Virus record (IMG/VR): IMGVR_UViG_3300006802_000086
Coordinates: 1-64,000 of that record
Source: a virus
DNA: 64,000 nt
Strand: one strand, 5' to 3'
The position numbers were made by a program, and so were the translations under genes. Below are positions 2-7,222 of the stretch, piece by piece; positions within the stretch are counted from its first letter, which is position 1, and the number at the start of each line of letters is the position of its first letter. A model generated the notes under the pieces. It was not told where the DNA came from and made no database searches. It was given only the letters and a program-made list of their open reading frames with translations.

Positions 2-601
2 GATGTTGTTATGAATGATAATATTAATAGAACTAGTCAAACAGTTCCTTCTTCAATTGCAGCATTAAAAGCTCTAGGATATAATGATTCAATTGCATAT
101 CCTTGGTTTGCACCTGCAGGATTTAATAGGGGTGCGTTAAATGATGTTATTAATTCAAAAGTAAGGCTAAACGCCGAAGATAGAAATATTCTTTATGAAT
201 CTAGAATTAATCCTATCGCAAACTTTCCAGACGGCGGTTTTGTTATTTTTGGCCAAAAAACATTGCAACAAGATCGATCATCACTGGACAGAGTTAACGT
301 AAGAAGAATGCTTTTAGAAGTAAAAAGAGTCATATCTGATATTGCTAACAAATTAATTTTTGAAAACAATACGCCGCAAACACGCGCAAGATTTGTTGCT
401 CAAGCAACACCTTTACTAGGCGCAATTCAATCGCAACAAGGTATTGATCAATTTAAAATTGTTATGGATACGTCTAACAATTCTGAGTTGGATATTGAAG
501 AAAACAAGCTTAACGGAAGAATTATTTTAGTCCCTACAAGAGTAGCAGAATTTATCTCTATTGACTTTATAATTACTAACGCAGGTGTTAGCTTTGAATA
601 A
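2..601 (+). CDS. Tail sheath protein paralogue, C-terminal part (truncated by window start)
   Basis: The reading frame is open to the left edge of the window, so this is the end of a longer gene and the ATG at 11 is internal. Residues before that Met read D-V-V and align with P-D-V-I-V just ahead of the same region in the next gene. The remaining ~199 residues align throughout with the C-terminal ~200 residues of that 991-residue protein: shared blocks include the PWFAPAG, INPI..FP and GQKTL motifs, LDR(V/I)NVRR, the PTR segment and an ending in (I/V)TNAG. This is the conserved C-terminal domain of contractile tail sheath proteins (T4 gp18 type), which polymerise around the tail tube. It lies 24 bases upstream of its paralogue in the same operon. 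A structural role is well supported; which paralogue forms the main sheath is not known. Confidence 0.85.
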   Translation, partial: DVVMNDNINRTSQTVPSSIAALKALGYNDSIAYPWFAPAGFNRGALNDVINSKVRLNAEDRNILYESRINPIANFPDGGFVIFGQKTLQQDRSSLDRVNVRRMLLEVKRVISDIANKLIFENNTPQTRARFVAQATPLLGAIQSQQGIDQFKIVMDTSNNSELDIEENKLNGRIILVPTRVAEFISIDFIITNAGVSFE

Positions 602-625: not shown

Positions 626-3601
626 ATGGCAGAATTAACATTTAAATCACCGGGTATCAGTACTAGAGAAATTGATTTATCACAAACAAGATCTTCTAGG
701 CCTGTCGGTATACCAGCTGGAATTATTGGAACTTCTTTAGAAGGTCCAGCTTTTATCCCTTTGACATTTGCAAATTTTAATGATTTTGTAACAACATTTG
801 GGGCATCAGATGGTGAAAAATTCGGGCCAATTGCTGTAAGTCAATGGTTGACAAATGCTCAGTCAGTTACCTATATGAAAGTCCTAGGAATAGGCAACGG
901 AAAACAAAAAAATGCAACAACAGGTAAAGTAACAAATGCAGGTTTTGTTGTGGGTGATAGAATAATTCAAAATAATGGTTATGCAGGTGACAATCCTTAC
1001 GCCAATACAGGAGCCGGCTCTGTTGAAGGTAGAACTTACTTTTTAGGAAGCTTTATGTCAGAATCTGCAGGAAGTACTATTTTTTCTGATCCGGGCATAC
1101 AAACAGGGCCTAATTCAGTTTCTATTCTTAGAGGGGTAATCTTAGCACCTAGTGGCGTAGTTCTTCATTTGTCTGGTAATAATATGGCAGATACATCTGC
1201 ACCAAGTAAGTCGCAAACTGCAACTAACGGAAGCACCCTGGCCGGCCAAAAAGGTTCGCTTACTGGATCGATTAATATAAGCAGCCAAGAATTTGTAATG
1301 ATGATGAATGGTTATTCCAATTCTGATACTGGAAAGACGACAGTATTAACTGCATCTTTAGATATGACAGCACCAAATTATTTTAAAAACGTATTTAACA
1401 CAGATCCGCTTAAGATAGAAGAAGAAGGTCACTATCTTTATGCATCATACGACATATACCCAGATATGGCAACAGTCACAGGAAGTGGAGTTGTTGAAGC
1501 TAGTGGTGTGAGTGGAAACTTAGAAGACGCTATATTTTTATTAACATCGTCAGCAGGAAGAGGATCAGCTAGCTCGAGCACAGAAGTTGACTATGAAGAT
1601 TTTGAATACAGATATACGCATGCATCTTCTCCTTTTGTAATATCTCAAAATTTTGGTAATGCTCCTCATAACTTGTTTAAAATTCATGCGCTGTCAGATG
1701 GCGAAGGTATATCTAATAGATATAAGATATCAATTGAAAATATTAAAAAATCAACATCAACTTCTGACTTGTACGGTACTTTTGATTTAGTTATTAGAGA
1801 CTTTTATGATACAGATCCTTATCCAGTTGTTTTGGAAAGTTTTAGAGGTTTAAGTCTTGACCCCGGGTCTGATCGTTATATTGCCAGGGTTATTGGTGAT
1901 CAAAACATAAGATATAATTTTGATGTTGCCGAAACATCACAAAAAATTATTGTTGAAGGGAATCATCCAGTTAGATCTAGATATATTAGAATCGAAACGA
2001 CCCTAGCACTAGAAGACGCGTCGATTCCTAAAACCTCGTTACCTTTTGGGTTTAGAGGTCCTAATCATTTAGTTACTAGTGGTTCTTTGTTGGCAACAGT
2101 AGACCCGGGTAGTAATTTAAGTAATACAGACATTACTAAAAGAATAATTGAACCGCCGATTCCTTATAGGGAAAGTGTTGCTATTGGTACTGGTTTGCTT
2201 AAAAAGTCTGATTCTAGATATTACTGGGGCGTGCAAACTATGCGTAAAACAAACCCGGCGCAACCTAATTTGACTAGTCTTTTTGACAATAGTTTTGATG
2301 CATTTACTAAGCATTTTCCAAATAATAGAATTAACACGCTTAATTTTTCAGTTGGTAATAATGCAGGTACAGCAAACGTAGCCGGTAGCATTCTAGACAG
2401 TGATTTATTTAATAAAAATAAGTTTTCTTTAGAAAATATACAAGTTCGTACCGGCTCAGATGGCCTCGCGGATCCGGATCAATGGCTAAGTGCTTCTTAT
2501 GTTAGAGATGGCAATATTACACCATCCAGTACAAACAAAACAAGGGCATTTGAAGAAAGCGATTTAGGTAAAGTTGCTAATACTAAGTTTGCTAAATTTA
2601 CCATGATTCTCCAAGGTGGGTTTAACGGTGTTAATATTTTCAATAGAGAAAAGAAAAACCTGACAAATATAGCAGCAAGAAGAGAATATATTGAGTCACA
2701 ATCTACAGCCACTCAACAAAGTACAATTGCGGCATATAGAAAAGCTATCGACTTAATGGCATCAAAAACAGATGTAGATATTCAATTACTAGCATTACCT
2801 GGAATTAGACACCCGTCAATTACTGATTATGCAATTCAAAAAGTAGAAGATAGATTTGATGCTATGTATATTATGGATATCGAAGAAGTAGATCAATTAA
2901 ATAATGTTATAACTTCTTCTGTGCAAAAGCCAAATGTTCAAAATACAGTTGTTAACTTAAGTGGAAGATCCCTTAATTCGTCATTTGCTGCAGCGTATTT
3001 TCCGGATGTTATTGTTACAGATCCAACAACAAAAACATTAGTACAAGTTCCTCCATCAGTTGCAGTGTTAGGTGCATACTCATTTAATGATAAGGTTTCT
3101 CACCCTTGGTTTGCACCGGCAGGTTATGCAAGAGGTGCTTTAAATAGCGTCGAATTACCTTCTGTTAAACTTAATAGAACTAACTTAGATGACTTGTATG
3201 GCGCAGACATCAATCCTATTACAGAATTTCCTAATACCGGTGTGACTATATGGGGACAAAAAACTTTGCTGGCGTCTAATTCAGCATTAGACAGAATTAA
3301 TGTTCGTAGGCTTTTAATTGATGTTCGTAGAAAAGTTAGAAGTGTTGCAAACAGTCTTTTGTTCGAACCTAACAGGGAAGAAACATTAGATAAATTTAAT
3401 TCATTGGTTAACCCTATTTTACAAAGAGTTCAAGAACAAAACGGTGTTGACAGATACAAAGTCATTATTGACACAACGACTACAACTCAAGCAGATGTTG
3501 AAAATAATACAATACGTGGAAAAGTTTATTTGCAGCCTACACGTTCAATTGAGTTTGTTTCACTAGATTTTGTTGTTACAAATGCTGGTGCAAATATTTA
3601 A
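626..3601 (+). CDS. Tail sheath protein, large form (991 aa)
   Basis: Sheath subunit of a contractile tail. The N-terminus (FKSPGISTREIDLS, then GIPAGIIGTSLEGPAFIPLTF) is the typical start of T4-type sheath proteins. The C-terminal ~200 residues carry the conserved sheath domain with PWFAPAG, INPITEFP, GQKTL and LDRINVRR. At 991 residues it is much longer than T4 gp18 (659), and the extra length lies in residues ~90-600, probably surface insertions. The ATG follows a GGAG Shine-Dalgarno. It sits between a second sheath paralogue and the tube gene, the standard sheath-tube order. The family assignment is firm. The role of having two sheath genes is open. Confidence 0.92.
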   Translation: MAELTFKSPGISTREIDLSQTRSSRPVGIPAGIIGTSLEGPAFIPLTFANFNDFVTTFGASDGEKFGPIAVSQWLTNAQSVTYMKVLGIGNGKQKNATTGKVTNAGFVVGDRIIQNNGYAGDNPYANTGAGSVEGRTYFLGSFMSESAGSTIFSDPGIQTGPNSVSILRGVILAPSGVVLHLSGNNMADTSAPSKSQTATNGSTLAGQKGSLTGSINISSQEFVMMMNGYSNSDTGKTTVLTASLDMTAPNYFKNVFNTDPLKIEEEGHYLYASYDIYPDMATVTGSGVVEASGVSGNLEDAIFLLTSSAGRGSASSSTEVDYEDFEYRYTHASSPFVISQNFGNAPHNLFKIHALSDGEGISNRYKISIENIKKSTSTSDLYGTFDLVIRDFYDTDPYPVVLESFRGLSLDPGSDRYIARVIGDQNIRYNFDVAETSQKIIVEGNHPVRSRYIRIETTLALEDASIPKTSLPFGFRGPNHLVTSGSLLATVDPGSNLSNTDITKRIIEPPIPYRESVAIGTGLLKKSDSRYYWGVQTMRKTNPAQPNLTSLFDNSFDAFTKHFPNNRINTLNFSVGNNAGTANVAGSILDSDLFNKNKFSLENIQVRTGSDGLADPDQWLSASYVRDGNITPSSTNKTRAFEESDLGKVANTKFAKFTMILQGGFNGVNIFNREKKNLTNIAARREYIESQSTATQQSTIAAYRKAIDLMASKTDVDIQLLALPGIRHPSITDYAIQKVEDRFDAMYIMDIEEVDQLNNVITSSVQKPNVQNTVVNLSGRSLNSSFAAAYFPDVIVTDPTTKTLVQVPPSVAVLGAYSFNDKVSHPWFAPAGYARGALNSVELPSVKLNRTNLDDLYGADINPITEFPNTGVTIWGQKTLLASNSALDRINVRRLLIDVRRKVRSVANSLLFEPNREETLDKFNSLVNPILQRVQEQNGVDRYKVIIDTTTTTQADVENNTIRGKVYLQPTRSIEFVSLDFVVTNAGANI

Positions 3602-3638: not shown

Positions 3639-4130
3639 ATGGCAGAAACACTTTCAGTAACAGACTTACTACCAAATAAGTTTGAACCGAAAAGAGATTA
3701 TAGATGGGTTTTAGCAATTGAAGGTATTGATTCATTTTTAATATCTGATACAAAAAGACCTGACATATCAATTGACAAAGATGAAATCCCTTTTATTAAT
3801 AGCTATAGAGTTGTTTCTAAAGGTAAGGTTAAGTTTGGCGGAATATCAGTTAAGCTTCATGATCCGATTGCACCTTCAGGTGCACAGCAAGTAATGGAAT
3901 GGATCAGAACTCACTATGAGTCTGTTTCAGGAAGAGCCGGATATGCAGATTTTTACAAAAGAGATCTTCAACTTAAGCTTTTAGATCCTATTGGTACAGT
4001 TATTGAATTGTGGGATATTAAAGGCGCAATCATTACGAGCGCTAATTTTGGAACACTTAGTTACGGTAGTGGAAATATGTTATCAATCGATCTATCATTA
4101 GAAGTTGATAATTGTGTATTGCAATTCTAA
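3639..4130 (+). CDS. Tail tube protein (gp19-like)
   Basis: A 163-residue protein directly after the sheath, matching the size of T4 gp19 (163 aa). The N-terminus contains the sequence DYRWVLAIEGIDSFLISDTKRP. The middle has the pattern KVKFGGISVKLHDPIAPSGAQQ followed by WIRTHYE, and the end has LELWDIKGA-like and SLEVDNCVLQF segments seen in T4-type tube proteins. It should form the stacked hexameric rings of the inner tube through which DNA passes. A good Shine-Dalgarno (AGGAG) precedes the ATG. A strong hairpin terminator follows, so sheath and tube can be transcribed at a different level from the next block. Assignment rests on position, size and motif pattern. Confidence 0.85.
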   Translation: MAETLSVTDLLPNKFEPKRDYRWVLAIEGIDSFLISDTKRPDISIDKDEIPFINSYRVVSKGKVKFGGISVKLHDPIAPSGAQQVMEWIRTHYESVSGRAGYADFYKRDLQLKLLDPIGTVIELWDIKGAIITSANFGTLSYGSGNMLSIDLSLEVDNCVLQF

Positions 4131-4215: not shown

Positions 4216-5019
4216 ATGCAAAACAAAAACATGCCTACTAGTAATATTTTAAAAGATGATTTTGGTTGGGAGGTACCATTTGAGACAGTACCTTTGCCTT
4301 CTAGAGGCGTTGTATACCACCCGGACAGCAAGTTATATAATAAAGAGTCTATTAGCATAAAAGCAATGACAGCGCTAGAAGAAGACATACTGTCTAGTCA
4401 GGCTTTTATTAAAGAAGGTACATCAGTAGCACGTGCAATTCAGTCTTGTATCGTAGAAGACAATGTTGATGTTGATGAAATGATATCAGGTGATAAAAAT
4501 GCACTTATGATATCGATGAGAATTACAGGTTACGGCTCTAGATACCCTGTTTTGCATTCATGCGCAAACTGTGGAGCTCAAAATGAAGTTGACGTCCAGC
4601 TAAACGAGTTAGCTATTAATCGATTAAAAGAAGAGCCAATCGTCAAAGGAGAAAATAAGTTTAAATTTCTGTTACCTGTCTCAGGAAAAGAAGTTATTTT
4701 TAAATTTTTAACCGGATATGATGAAAAAGAAGAAAAAATTAAAAAGCAAAGAATGAAAAGCATGGGTATTAATTTAGATAATAACGTTACTTCCTTTTTG
4801 GAACAATCAATATTATCAATTGACAATATTACCGATAAAAATAAAATATCGCATTTTATAAAACACATGCCTGCTATGGATTCTAGAAAACTAAGACTTC
4901 ATATAATAAATCAGGAGCCGGGGATAGATATGACTTGGAAATATGTTTGCAATTCTTGCACTCATAATAATGAGTTAGGCATACCAATATCTACAGAGTT
5001 TTTTTGGCCCAGTACATAG
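4216..5019 (+). CDS. Tail/baseplate assembly chaperone-like protein with zinc ribbon (frameshift upstream frame)
   Basis: A 267-residue protein starting WEVPFETVPLPSRGVVY, a pattern seen in T4-type gp26-like baseplate hub assembly proteins. Two CxxC pairs (C-A-N-C near residue 116 and C-N-S-C near 245) probably form a zinc site. A region around residues 50-100 (MTALEEDILSSQAF and GDKNALMISMRITGYG) is also typical of that family. It sits between tube and tape measure, where many tailed phages encode two tail assembly chaperones joined by programmed frameshifting. It ends in T-E-F-F-W-P-S-T. The next frame is open across this end and reads F-F-G-P instead, so a longer fused product is likely. 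ATG has the Shine-Dalgarno AGGAGAG. Confidence 0.7.
   Translation: MQNKNMPTSNILKDDFGWEVPFETVPLPSRGVVYHPDSKLYNKESISIKAMTALEEDILSSQAFIKEGTSVARAIQSCIVEDNVDVDEMISGDKNALMISMRITGYGSRYPVLHSCANCGAQNEVDVQLNELAINRLKEEPIVKGENKFKFLLPVSGKEVIFKFLTGYDEKEEKIKKQRMKSMGINLDNNVTSFLEQSILSIDNITDKNKISHFIKHMPAMDSRKLRLHIINQEPGIDMTWKYVCNSCTHNNELGIPISTEFFWPST
4999..5005 (+). promoter_or_regulatory. Candidate ribosomal frameshift site (T7 run)
   Basis: Seven consecutive T read as GAG TTT TTT TGG in the upstream frame. The downstream frame has its last stop at 4976-4978 and the upstream frame stops at 5017-5019, so any shift must occur in this ~40-base overlap. A Phe-tRNA slip of net +1 (or -2) on TTT TTT T moves decoding into F-F-G-P-V-H-S-W-R-E and on into the next coding region. 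No strong downstream structure is evident by eye. Confidence 0.5.
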
Positions 5020-5059
5020 CTGGCGCGAAAAAATACTAGAAGAATTTTTTCTGCTCCAG

Positions 5060-5263
5060 ATGCACCTCAACATGTCTTATTCAGAGGTCAAAAGATTACC
5101 AATACGATATCGCCATTGGTTTTTAGACAGAGTTGCGAGGCATTTTAAAGAGAAAAATGAAGCAATTGAAAAAAGATATAACAAAGATGCTAGTCACAGT
5201 AACGACAATTTAAATAATTTGGCAATGTTTGAACAACAAATCAATGATAAGTTAAAAAAATAA
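5060..5263 (+). CDS. Frameshift extension of the tail chaperone (T-like domain)
   Basis: The frame is open from 4979, well upstream of the first ATG at 5060. That ATG and the next at 5072 have no Shine-Dalgarno. The open frame reads F-F-G-P-V-H-S-W-R-E-K-I-L-E-E-F-F-L-L-Q before the first Met, a sensible helical protein sequence. The following MHLNMSYSEVKRLPIRYRHW segment has the 'helix, L-P-x-x-x-R-x-W' look of the T domains of tail assembly chaperones, and is followed by a charged C-terminal tail. I infer that it is made mainly or only as a fusion with the upstream protein and acts in assembling the tail around the tape measure encoded next. If initiated at the ATG it would be a 67-residue protein. 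Confidence 0.6.
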   Translation: MHLNMSYSEVKRLPIRYRHWFLDRVARHFKEKNEAIEKRYNKDASHSNDNLNNLAMFEQQINDKLKK

Positions 5264-5302
5264 TTTTGTGCATACTTATTATTATTATCAAAGGAGTGAT
5301 TG

Positions 5303-7222
5303 ATGCCACCAAACACACCAAATAACCAGAATACATCACAGAGTCAAACTTCTCAAAGCGCGCAAGACATTATTAGCGACCAATTAGGTGATTTAAGCAA
5401 TAGTGCAGATGATGCTACAAAAAGCATGTCAAGATTAAGTGATGAGACTGAAAAAGCCGGCGACAGTGCAAAGTATCTTGGAGTTGGAGCAGTAAGTTTG
5501 ATAACAGCGCTTAGTACTGTTGATGGTCAAACGGGACGAATTGCCCGAAGTATTATGAAAGGAGTAACAACACTAGCAGAAGAAACTTACAACAGCCAAG
5601 CAGAAATTGCCAAAAATATGAATCATATGTTGGATCCCTATACTAAACTTAATGAATCAATTGGAGGAATTACAAGAGAAATGTTTATAAGTGGCGAAGA
5701 AATGAATGCATTTTCTGCCACAGCTTTTGAAACAACGCAAGACTTTCAAAAAGCTTTTGCTGGAATTGGCGATTCTGCAATTACTTTTAAGTCTAATAGC
5801 GGTGATATAAAAAACGCATTTAAATCTCTTTTCCCGACAGAAGAAGATATGCGAGATGCTTATGACATGGTAGGTCAGCTCAATAAAGGAATTGCTGAAG
5901 GATTTGCAATAATGAGCGATGAACTAACTAAGACTGAAAGGGTTAGAATGGTCGCACTAGCACGAGCAACAGGTACTGATATAAAAGTACTTAAAGAATT
6001 GACAGAAAAGCAATTTGCATTTACAGGAGAAGCTAGCACAGATGTTATTGAAAAAATAACAGCGACAGCTGATGCGTTGGCAACTGCAACAGGTTTGCCA
6101 CTTCAAACTCTTAAAAATAGTATTATTGAGATAAAACAAGATACAGAACTATTTGGTGATATTGGTGAAGACGCAGCCGGCCGAATTGCTGCTTCTTTAA
6201 GTATGCTAGGCACATCTTTTCAGTCTTTTAAAGCAATGACCGGTCAATTTATGGATTTTGATAGTGCTGCAAAAAAAATGGGTGACTTATCTGCGATGTT
6301 TGGTATTCAAATGGATGCAATGGAAATGACTTATTTGGCAAATGAAGATCAAGAGGAGTTTCTATATAGAATAAGGGAAGATATTCTTGCATCAGGTGTA
6401 GACGTAGAAAACATGTCAAATGCCAGACTAAGAATGCTTAAATCGCAACTTGGTATGAGTTCTGTAGAAGAAGTAAAAATGTTTTTAAAAGAAGACAGTG
6501 CTTTTGACGAAATTGGTCAAGAAGGAATTGCAGCAGCAGCAGCACAGGCTGAAAACTTAGACGGAATGACAGTTGCAATCAAAAAATTTGCTGAAACAGG
6601 TAACGAAGCCCTTAGATCTATTGATACAGAACGCGCTGTTCAAATGGCTGCAGCTTCTTCAGAAATGGTAAGAGAGCTTAGCAATAGCGTAACACTATCA
6701 GGAGAAGTAGCTGCAAATTTTCAAAAAGTCAACCTGGCAGGATCAGAAAATATTGAAGCCTATAAATCAATGCTTTCTGGGTATAATGGTGTTATTGTTG
6801 ATGGTGCTAAAATGTTAGGAAACGCTACATCATCAACAATTCAAGGTATTGCAGACACGTCAGCTAAAGGTGTAAATTTAATAACTAGCGCATTAGGACA
6901 GTCGACGGAAGCTGCTAATTGGTATAGTAATGTGACCACGCCTCCTGCAACTGTTCAATACGAAGTTGACACCACCGCGATTAACGACGCTATTGTTTCT
7001 GGTTTTAATCCTGCGGCAGAATTAATGCGACAAACCAGTCAACAAACCGGTCAATTAACTGTTGGTCTAACCCAGTTAGTAACACAAATGAAACAGCCTA
7101 GTACACAAACTGTTAACGTAAATTTAGACGGTCAGCAACTAGGATCATCAATGCTGAATATTATAACTAGACCTGGAGTAACAAATTCAGCCGGGCAATC
7201 TTTGGTAGTTGCAGGAGGATAA
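5303..7222 (+). CDS. Tape-measure-like tail protein
   Basis: About 639 residues, largely helical and rich in Ala, Ser, Glu and Met. An N-terminal Gln/Ser-rich stretch is followed by long coiled-coil-like segments (D-D-A-T-K-S-M-S-R-L-S-D-E-T-E-K-A). There is an Ala-rich run near residues 410-420 and a C-terminal low-complexity tail with T-V-N-V-N-L-D-G-Q. The position directly after a chaperone pair and before the baseplate genes is the usual site of the tape measure (T4 gp29 is 590 aa), which sets tail length and passes through the tube. The ATG at 5303 follows AAGGAGTGATTG. An in-frame TTG at 5300 is less likely. Assignment depends mainly on context, length and composition. Confidence 0.6.
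   Translation: MPPNTPNNQNTSQSQTSQSAQDIISDQLGDLSNSADDATKSMSRLSDETEKAGDSAKYLGVGAVSLITALSTVDGQTGRIARSIMKGVTTLAEETYNSQAEIAKNMNHMLDPYTKLNESIGGITREMFISGEEMNAFSATAFETTQDFQKAFAGIGDSAITFKSNSGDIKNAFKSLFPTEEDMRDAYDMVGQLNKGIAEGFAIMSDELTKTERVRMVALARATGTDIKVLKELTEKQFAFTGEASTDVIEKITATADALATATGLPLQTLKNSIIEIKQDTELFGDIGEDAAGRIAASLSMLGTSFQSFKAMTGQFMDFDSAAKKMGDLSAMFGIQMDAMEMTYLANEDQEEFLYRIREDILASGVDVENMSNARLRMLKSQLGMSSVEEVKMFLKEDSAFDEIGQEGIAAAAAQAENLDGMTVAIKKFAETGNEALRSIDTERAVQMAAASSEMVRELSNSVTLSGEVAANFQKVNLAGSENIEAYKSMLSGYNGVIVDGAKMLGNATSSTIQGIADTSAKGVNLITSALGQSTEAANWYSNVTTPPATVQYEVDTTAINDAIVSGFNPAAELMRQTSQQTGQLTVGLTQLVTQMKQPSTQTVNVNLDGQQLGSSMLNIITRPGVTNSAGQSLVVAGG

Follow-up and report, generated by a model that had tools for sequence, protein, structure and literature searches.

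The window analysed here, a 64,000-nucleotide stretch covering positions 1 to 64,000 of the IMG/VR virus record IMGVR_UViG_3300006802_000086, carries two overlapping frames between a tail tube gene and a gene in tape-measure position, all on the plus strand. ORF1 (4216..5019) encodes 267 aa of T4 gp26 type (PF12322 / phrog_150) with two CxxC-type pairs, and is the putative short form 'G'. ORF2 lies in the +1 frame relative to ORF1; it opens after a TAG at 4976-4978, spans 4979..5263 with its stop at 5261-5263, reads ...FFGPVHSWREKILEEFF..., and shares 4979-5019 with ORF1. The upstream neighbour (3639..4130) is a tail tube protein (phrog_4542, E 6e-21), and the downstream neighbour (5303..7222, 639 aa) has its own Shine-Dalgarno sequence, AAAGGAG, at 5290-5296. 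Profile searches found no family match for this 639-aa gene, which is a putative tape measure by its position and by the annotation in three relatives (L006, L008 and L009). In addition, a 196-aa ORF at the start of the window (11-601) matches tail sheath proteins over their C-terminal part only (positions 715-913 of 915 in phrog_10581), and a complete 991-aa sheath gene (626-3601) follows it directly; the ORF is possibly a stand-alone sheath domain or a second sheath gene cut at the contig end.

ORF1 ends ...STEFFWPST*, with GAG TTT TTT TGG CCC AGT ACA TAG as its last codons and a run of seven T at 4999-5005. The candidate shift site, TTT TTT TGG (4999..5007), would place one TTT in the E site, the second (5002-5004) in the P site and TGG (5005-5007) in the A site, and re-pairing in the +1 direction would fall on TTT 5003-5005, with GGC (5006-5008) as the next codon. 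CCC_A (5008..5011), two codons 3' of UUU_U, is a candidate second +1 slip codon. From the shift site, ORF2 reads FF-GPVHSWREKILEEFFLLQMHLNMSYSEVKRLPIRYRHWFLDRV...; its coding part after the shift, the 'T' domain, would occupy 5006-5260 (85 aa), and the predicted joined product 'GT' (4216..5263) has 348 aa, with ...ISTEFF meeting GPVHSWREK... at the junction. The first in-frame ATG of ORF2 (5060..5062) was not preceded by a Shine-Dalgarno sequence in GAATTTTTTCTGCTCCAG, and a start there would drop the conserved first 18 residues. The preliminary description of this DNA had noted the two overlapping frames, the first ending F-F-W-P-S-T and the second open from 4979, the ATG at 5060 with no ribosome site and the protein segment it would discard, and the place between tube and tape measure, all of which we recovered.

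ORF1 matched PF12322 ('T4 bacteriophage base plate protein') with E 1e-14, at 55.2 bits against a curated cut-off of 24.5, and phrog_150 ('baseplate hub') with E 1.5e-16. Its AlphaFold model reached a pLDDT of 91, and the viral structures that this model matched were those of baseplate hub proteins of T4 type (lowest E 9e-20). Searches of PDB sequences and folds gave no significant match for ORF1 or ORF2, the HK97 tail assembly chaperone 2ob9 being listed by the fold search as a weak match (E 4.1, probability 0.15), and no homology to lambda gpG was detected. ORF1 and ORF2 were folded as separate proteins rather than joined, with alignment rows from the window and IMG/VR only.

The substitution pattern indicates that ORF2 is a true coding sequence under purifying selection. 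Across 35 independent pairs, the part of ORF2 3' of the ORF1 stop had a pN/pS of 0.24, and differences at the three codon positions numbered 415/269/880. Its conserved pattern, G-L-x5-E/K-x2-LE-x2-F-x-L-x-Y-x2-GF-x-Y-x-E-x-Y-x-LPV-x2-R-x-WF, begins at the first codon past the shift. The AlphaFold model (pLDDT 88) consists of three helices, of which helices 1, 2 and the start of helix 3 are of high confidence. Direct tblastn of ORF2 against phages returned no match, since the sequence is too short and diverged.

Relatives of the locus were gathered from IMG/VR, phage records and MAG contigs. The ORF2 profile matched the +1 frame only in 208 of 214 loci, the -1 frame only in one (L201) and neither frame in five (L065, which is truncated, L173, L174, L223 and L109). 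This tally is partly circular, as the profile was built from +1-frame translations; the -1 translations of the same loci gave no match. Among the other gene ends of these loci, 409 in number, only 6% had a comparably open +1 frame, so the open frame at the end of ORF1 is more than chance. The isolate genomes among the relatives (L005-L009) showed the same arrangement. Rhodothermus phage RM378 has TCC TTT TTT TGG with an open +1 frame, in which the ORF2 profile stays below significance.

The shift site was kept across proteins that are only about 30% identical. TTT TTT TGG occurred in 140 of the 214 loci, and the variants TTT TTT TAC (19 loci), TTY TTT CGN (about 20), TTT CTT TGG (9) and TTC TTT TGG (5) all keep +1 re-pairing. 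Furthermore, of 130 representatives with Phe at the P site, 129 encode it as TTT, where local codon usage predicts 82.7 (the probabilities multiply to about 1e-27 with shared ancestry ignored); TTT also stands there in 9 of 9 loci that have TTC as the commoner Phe codon. This synonymous constraint is not due to dual coding, because the +1 frame 5' of the shift is not translated. The sole P-site TTC belongs to L201 (1501-2247 and beyond), which has TTC TTC TGG and, alone among the loci, ORF2 in -1; either the +1 site was lost naturally there or the assembly is in error. Six related loci (L238, L239, L241, L243, L244 and L248) have ORF2 in +1, yet a good YUU_U is replaced there by TTA/CTA TTT/TTC AAT CCC AGT, and their slip codon may be CCC_A.

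The two frames could be connected through profiles to the T4 proteins gp26 and gp51, a pair that has long been puzzling and that the preliminary description had not named. PF12322 matches both T4 gp26 (E 9e-64) and T4 gp51 (E 4e-52), so the two are paralogues, and gp51 extends beyond gp26 at its C-terminus. In the phages P-SSM2, S-PM2, HTVC008M and KVP40, which have a single PF12322 gene, an ORF2-like domain lies directly behind that gene; it is labelled 'gp51' or 'baseplate hub assembly catalyst' in the P-SSM2, S-PM2 and KVP40 records, and the KVP40 record itself remarks on its likeness to the C-terminus of T4 gp51. The ORF2 profile matched the small gp51 of cyanophages and KVP40 with E about 1e-7 (Z=1000), and a profile of these small gp51 proteins matched the C-terminus of T4-type gp51 with 1.6e-9 for phiAS4 and 2.6e-5 for T4 (Z=1000). 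The ORF2 profile searched directly against T4 gp51 was not significant and direct profile comparison of T4 gp51 or gp26 with A2/A3 was weak, and the two-step chain was used instead. On this chain of profiles, ORF2 is homologous to the C-terminal extension of T4 gp51; therefore the predicted fusion has the domain order of T4 gp51, and ORF1 by itself corresponds to gp26.

More distant relatives arrange the same two domains in other ways. All 80 IMG/VR relatives of the cyanophage-type gp26 (L260-L339) have ORF2 in the -1 frame with T_TTT_TTC present. T_TTT_TTY runs were found in KVP40 (GAT TTT TTC), HTVC008M (AGT TTT TTT), Cr30 (GAT TTT TTT), XacN1 and LR756511. Besides the 80, several other gp26 genes (at L102, L103, L105, L106, L108, L011 and L012) end in T_TTT_TTC/T with a gp51-like ORF in -1; in all of these a classical -1 site lies in a pair that is usually annotated as two genes. 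Two bacterial genomes (L341 and L342, both at 859-1623) contain a single 255-aa ORF that matches PF12322 (E 2.5e-9 and 1.4e-8) and DUF6760 (E 1.5e-6, above the cut-off, and 5.5e-5, below it), with the domains meeting at ...FDMQSFF-M, whose Phe-Phe is that of the shift site. The ORFs 5' of these fusions are putative tube- and sheath-like genes of contractile-injection type. The bacterial loci suggest that DUF6760 is the tail (T) domain of a chaperone, the link between ORF2 and DUF6760 being weak at the sequence level. A DUF6760 profile scan of four host-contig genomes found none, and the domain occurred in 3 of 297 in a wider sample of the phylum. At a third bacterial locus (L340, minus strand), gp26-like and DUF6760 domains are in separate overlapping ORFs.

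Comparison of sequences documents the gene families, a frame and a site that are conserved, an ORF2 that is under selection and homologous to the tail of gp51, and in-frame fusions elsewhere, and from these we infer that a shift occurs in this phage, its rate and direction, and the chaperone function. We consider it very probable that the locus encodes a G/GT-type pair of tail assembly chaperones from the T4 gp26/gp51 family and that programmed +1 ribosomal frameshifting serves in its expression. The majority of ribosomes would terminate at 5019 and yield the short form, ORF1. A minority would slip at UUU_U, where the peptidyl-tRNA-Phe would move from UUU 5002-5004 to UUU 5003-5005 with UGG standing in the A site; GGC would then be read and the +1 frame followed to 5263, giving the 348-aa long form. 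tRNA-Phe on UUU re-pairs perfectly after a +1 step with UUU or UUC. The extra 85-aa helical domain of the long form would be the counterpart of the C-terminal tail of T4 gp51, and, by analogy with lambda, the short form may coat the tape measure while the tail domain recruits the tube protein.

Four other explanations of the overlapping frames, and one for the position of the slip, were weighed against this +1 shift at UUU_U. First, ORF2 could be a separate gene whose translation begins, through re-initiation or coupling, at 5060 or a different codon, with no fusion protein made. The homologue in Kyanoviridae and KVP40 is indeed annotated as a small gene of its own with an ATG at the ORF1 stop, and such an ATG is found in 56 of the 80 cyanophage-type loci; but T_TTT_TTC is present in all 80, some of them lacking a nearby start, and in the window there is no ribosome-binding site and the first start falls 18 residues into the conserved domain. 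Synonymous conservation at the slip site likewise argues against a separate gene, which we regard as improbable. The preliminary description had named relatives with a separate second gene as the finding that would speak against a frameshift. Within the clade this was not borne out, with an SD-like site at the first ORF2 start in 1 of 85 loci, whereas the distant Kyanoviridae and KVP40 do have a separate start in the -1 frame, and these also have a perfect U_UUU_UUC.

Second, the +1 slip could take place at CCC_A (5008-5011) instead of UUU_U, which would give the junction EFFWPVHSW instead of EFFGPVHSW. CCC is a known +1-prone codon, named together with UUU as next most slippery before a stop in the PRFect paper (PMC10885494), and CCC_A occurs in the window, in its nearest group (L014, L016-L018 and L021) and in the L238-L248 clade that has no YUU_U. 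Nearly all other relatives, however, have CCT_G, on which no +1 re-pairing is possible, and TTT_T is invariant there, so that we hold a slip at CCC_A to be unlikely to the same degree as a separate gene.

Third, the T run could give a net shift of -2, the kind proposed for tails of Mu type, with an extra Phe in the product (EFFFGPV). The preliminary description had left +1 and -2 side by side, and TTT TTT TGG itself re-pairs equally well in both directions, as do 128 of the 142 motif-bearing representatives, which permit either. The variants discriminate: nine representatives lose a -2 pair with full +1 re-pairing intact and only one shows the reverse, the TTC TTT sites being among those that lose -2 re-pairing and retain that for +1. 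CUU_U, found in nine loci, is reported as the known +1 slip codon of prfB in the PRFect paper (PMC10885494). The +1 step is thus favoured and is the simpler reading for the clade, a -2 step fits the variants less well, and we judge the latter slightly less credible again than the two preceding explanations. In other respects the proposal of a programmed frameshift between G/GT-type chaperone genes agreed with every computable check, including the conservation of the T run and of both frames.

Fourth, RNA polymerase could omit one U or add two on T7 and so create a single continuous frame. The window and most relatives do have T7, but relatives with T runs of at most three to four (TTTCTTTGG, TTCTTTTGG, TTCTTTCGT and TTTCTATTC) have the same frame relation. 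Seven bases are short for transcriptional slippage, and we give it very little credence. Finally, a single gene split by a sequencing or assembly error in the error-prone homopolymer is a negligible prospect, as more than 200 assemblies and the isolate genomes L005-L009 agree and some variants have no long homopolymer.

Regarding stimulation of the preferred +1 shift at UUU_U, we searched for a Shine-Dalgarno stimulator upstream of the site and saw no peak; the codon-resampling null for this search is biased, and we rely on the missing peak alone. Downstream RNA structure was in slight excess, with a mean z of -0.7 to -1.0 where controls gave -0.2 to -0.45, and UGG, the A-site codon, is as frequent as GGC in the window (1.0%) and so not rare. 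These observations speak against the preferred reading, as does the L238-L248 clade, which keeps ORF2 in +1 while lacking a good YUU_U site. The site may represent a new class of bacterial programmed signal with neither stop codon nor Shine-Dalgarno spacer, within one gene pair that has followed four routes, a view for which we find the arguments evenly balanced. These routes are +1 at YUU_U/UUU_C before a sense codon (the window clade), -1 at U_UUU_UUC (the cyanophage type), duplication (T4) and in-frame fusion (the bacterial loci). On that same evenly balanced view, since stop codon and spacer are both missing, another stimulator would act, such as the nascent peptide PxGxxFF, a downstream element or a property of a host tRNA.

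Several known systems resemble the locus in part. Like lambda G/GT, it lies between the tube and tape-measure genes, would shift near the end of the first gene and would pair a short form with a low-copy, C-terminally extended form; lambda, in contrast, uses -1 on a heptamer whereas the window would use +1 at YUU_U before a sense codon, and the window proteins are of the T4 gp26 family. The gp26/gp51 proteins are reportedly the tail assembly chaperone pair of T4-like phages, as described by Vladimirov, Gautam and Davidson in Virology 566:9-15 (2022). With T4 gp26/gp51 the locus shares the PF12322 family and the match of ORF2 to the gp51 C-tail, but T4 has separate short and long gene copies and no shift, whereas both forms are predicted from one locus in the window. 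In Kyanoviridae and KVP40 the same gene pair is present, with ORF1 ending Phe-Phe and ORF2 as the small 'gp51'; the difference is that ORF2 is in -1, behind U_UUU_UUC in all 80 loci and often with its own ATG. With prfB (release factor 2, CUU_UGA) the locus shares a candidate slip codon YUU_U at the P site, which reads CUU_UGG in nine relatives, while the A-site codon is a sense codon in the window clade (UGG, UAC or CGU) with no Shine-Dalgarno spacer seen, and a stop codon in prfB.

As regards published accounts, the lambda gpG/gpGT frameshift is described as conserved in long-tailed phages 'except T4' in a review (Atkins 2016, PMC5009743, summarising Xu et al. 2004). The same review calls the tail-assembly frameshift of the haloarchaeal myovirus HSTV-2 'very likely +1' (Atkins 2016, PMC5009743), and it is by this description that HSTV-2 is set beside the window. 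According to the PRFect paper (PMC10885494, from Vladimirov et al. 2022), some T4-like phages do not frameshift but have two gene copies, one short and one long, and the Adele paper (PMC12846349) mentions polyT -1 signals in some T4-like phages, attributed to Vladimirov et al. 2022, and -1 at GTTTTT in Vandenendeviridae. In the literature searched, where Vladimirov et al. 2022 is known through citing papers, no +1 version came up for the gp26/gp51 family. A shift in the +1 direction, which is the uncommon one, at a sense codon and with neither stop codon nor Shine-Dalgarno stimulator looks like a new variant of the tail-chaperone frameshift.

With the proposed shift, tail-chaperone frameshifting would reach into the T4 gp26/gp51 family, which the 2016 review singles out as the exception, with the shift direction flipped between homologous genes, and the shift would make hundreds of natural +1-site variants available. 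It would also mean that the second half of a tail gene is routinely missed in annotation; the ORF2 part is unannotated or hypothetical in SP-15, LIS04, GXN1, Mel-JY01 and immuto. Three of the isolate relatives (L007-L009), Streptococcus GXN1, Listeria LIS04 and Bacillus SP-15, are cultured Gram-positive phages and hence accessible systems.
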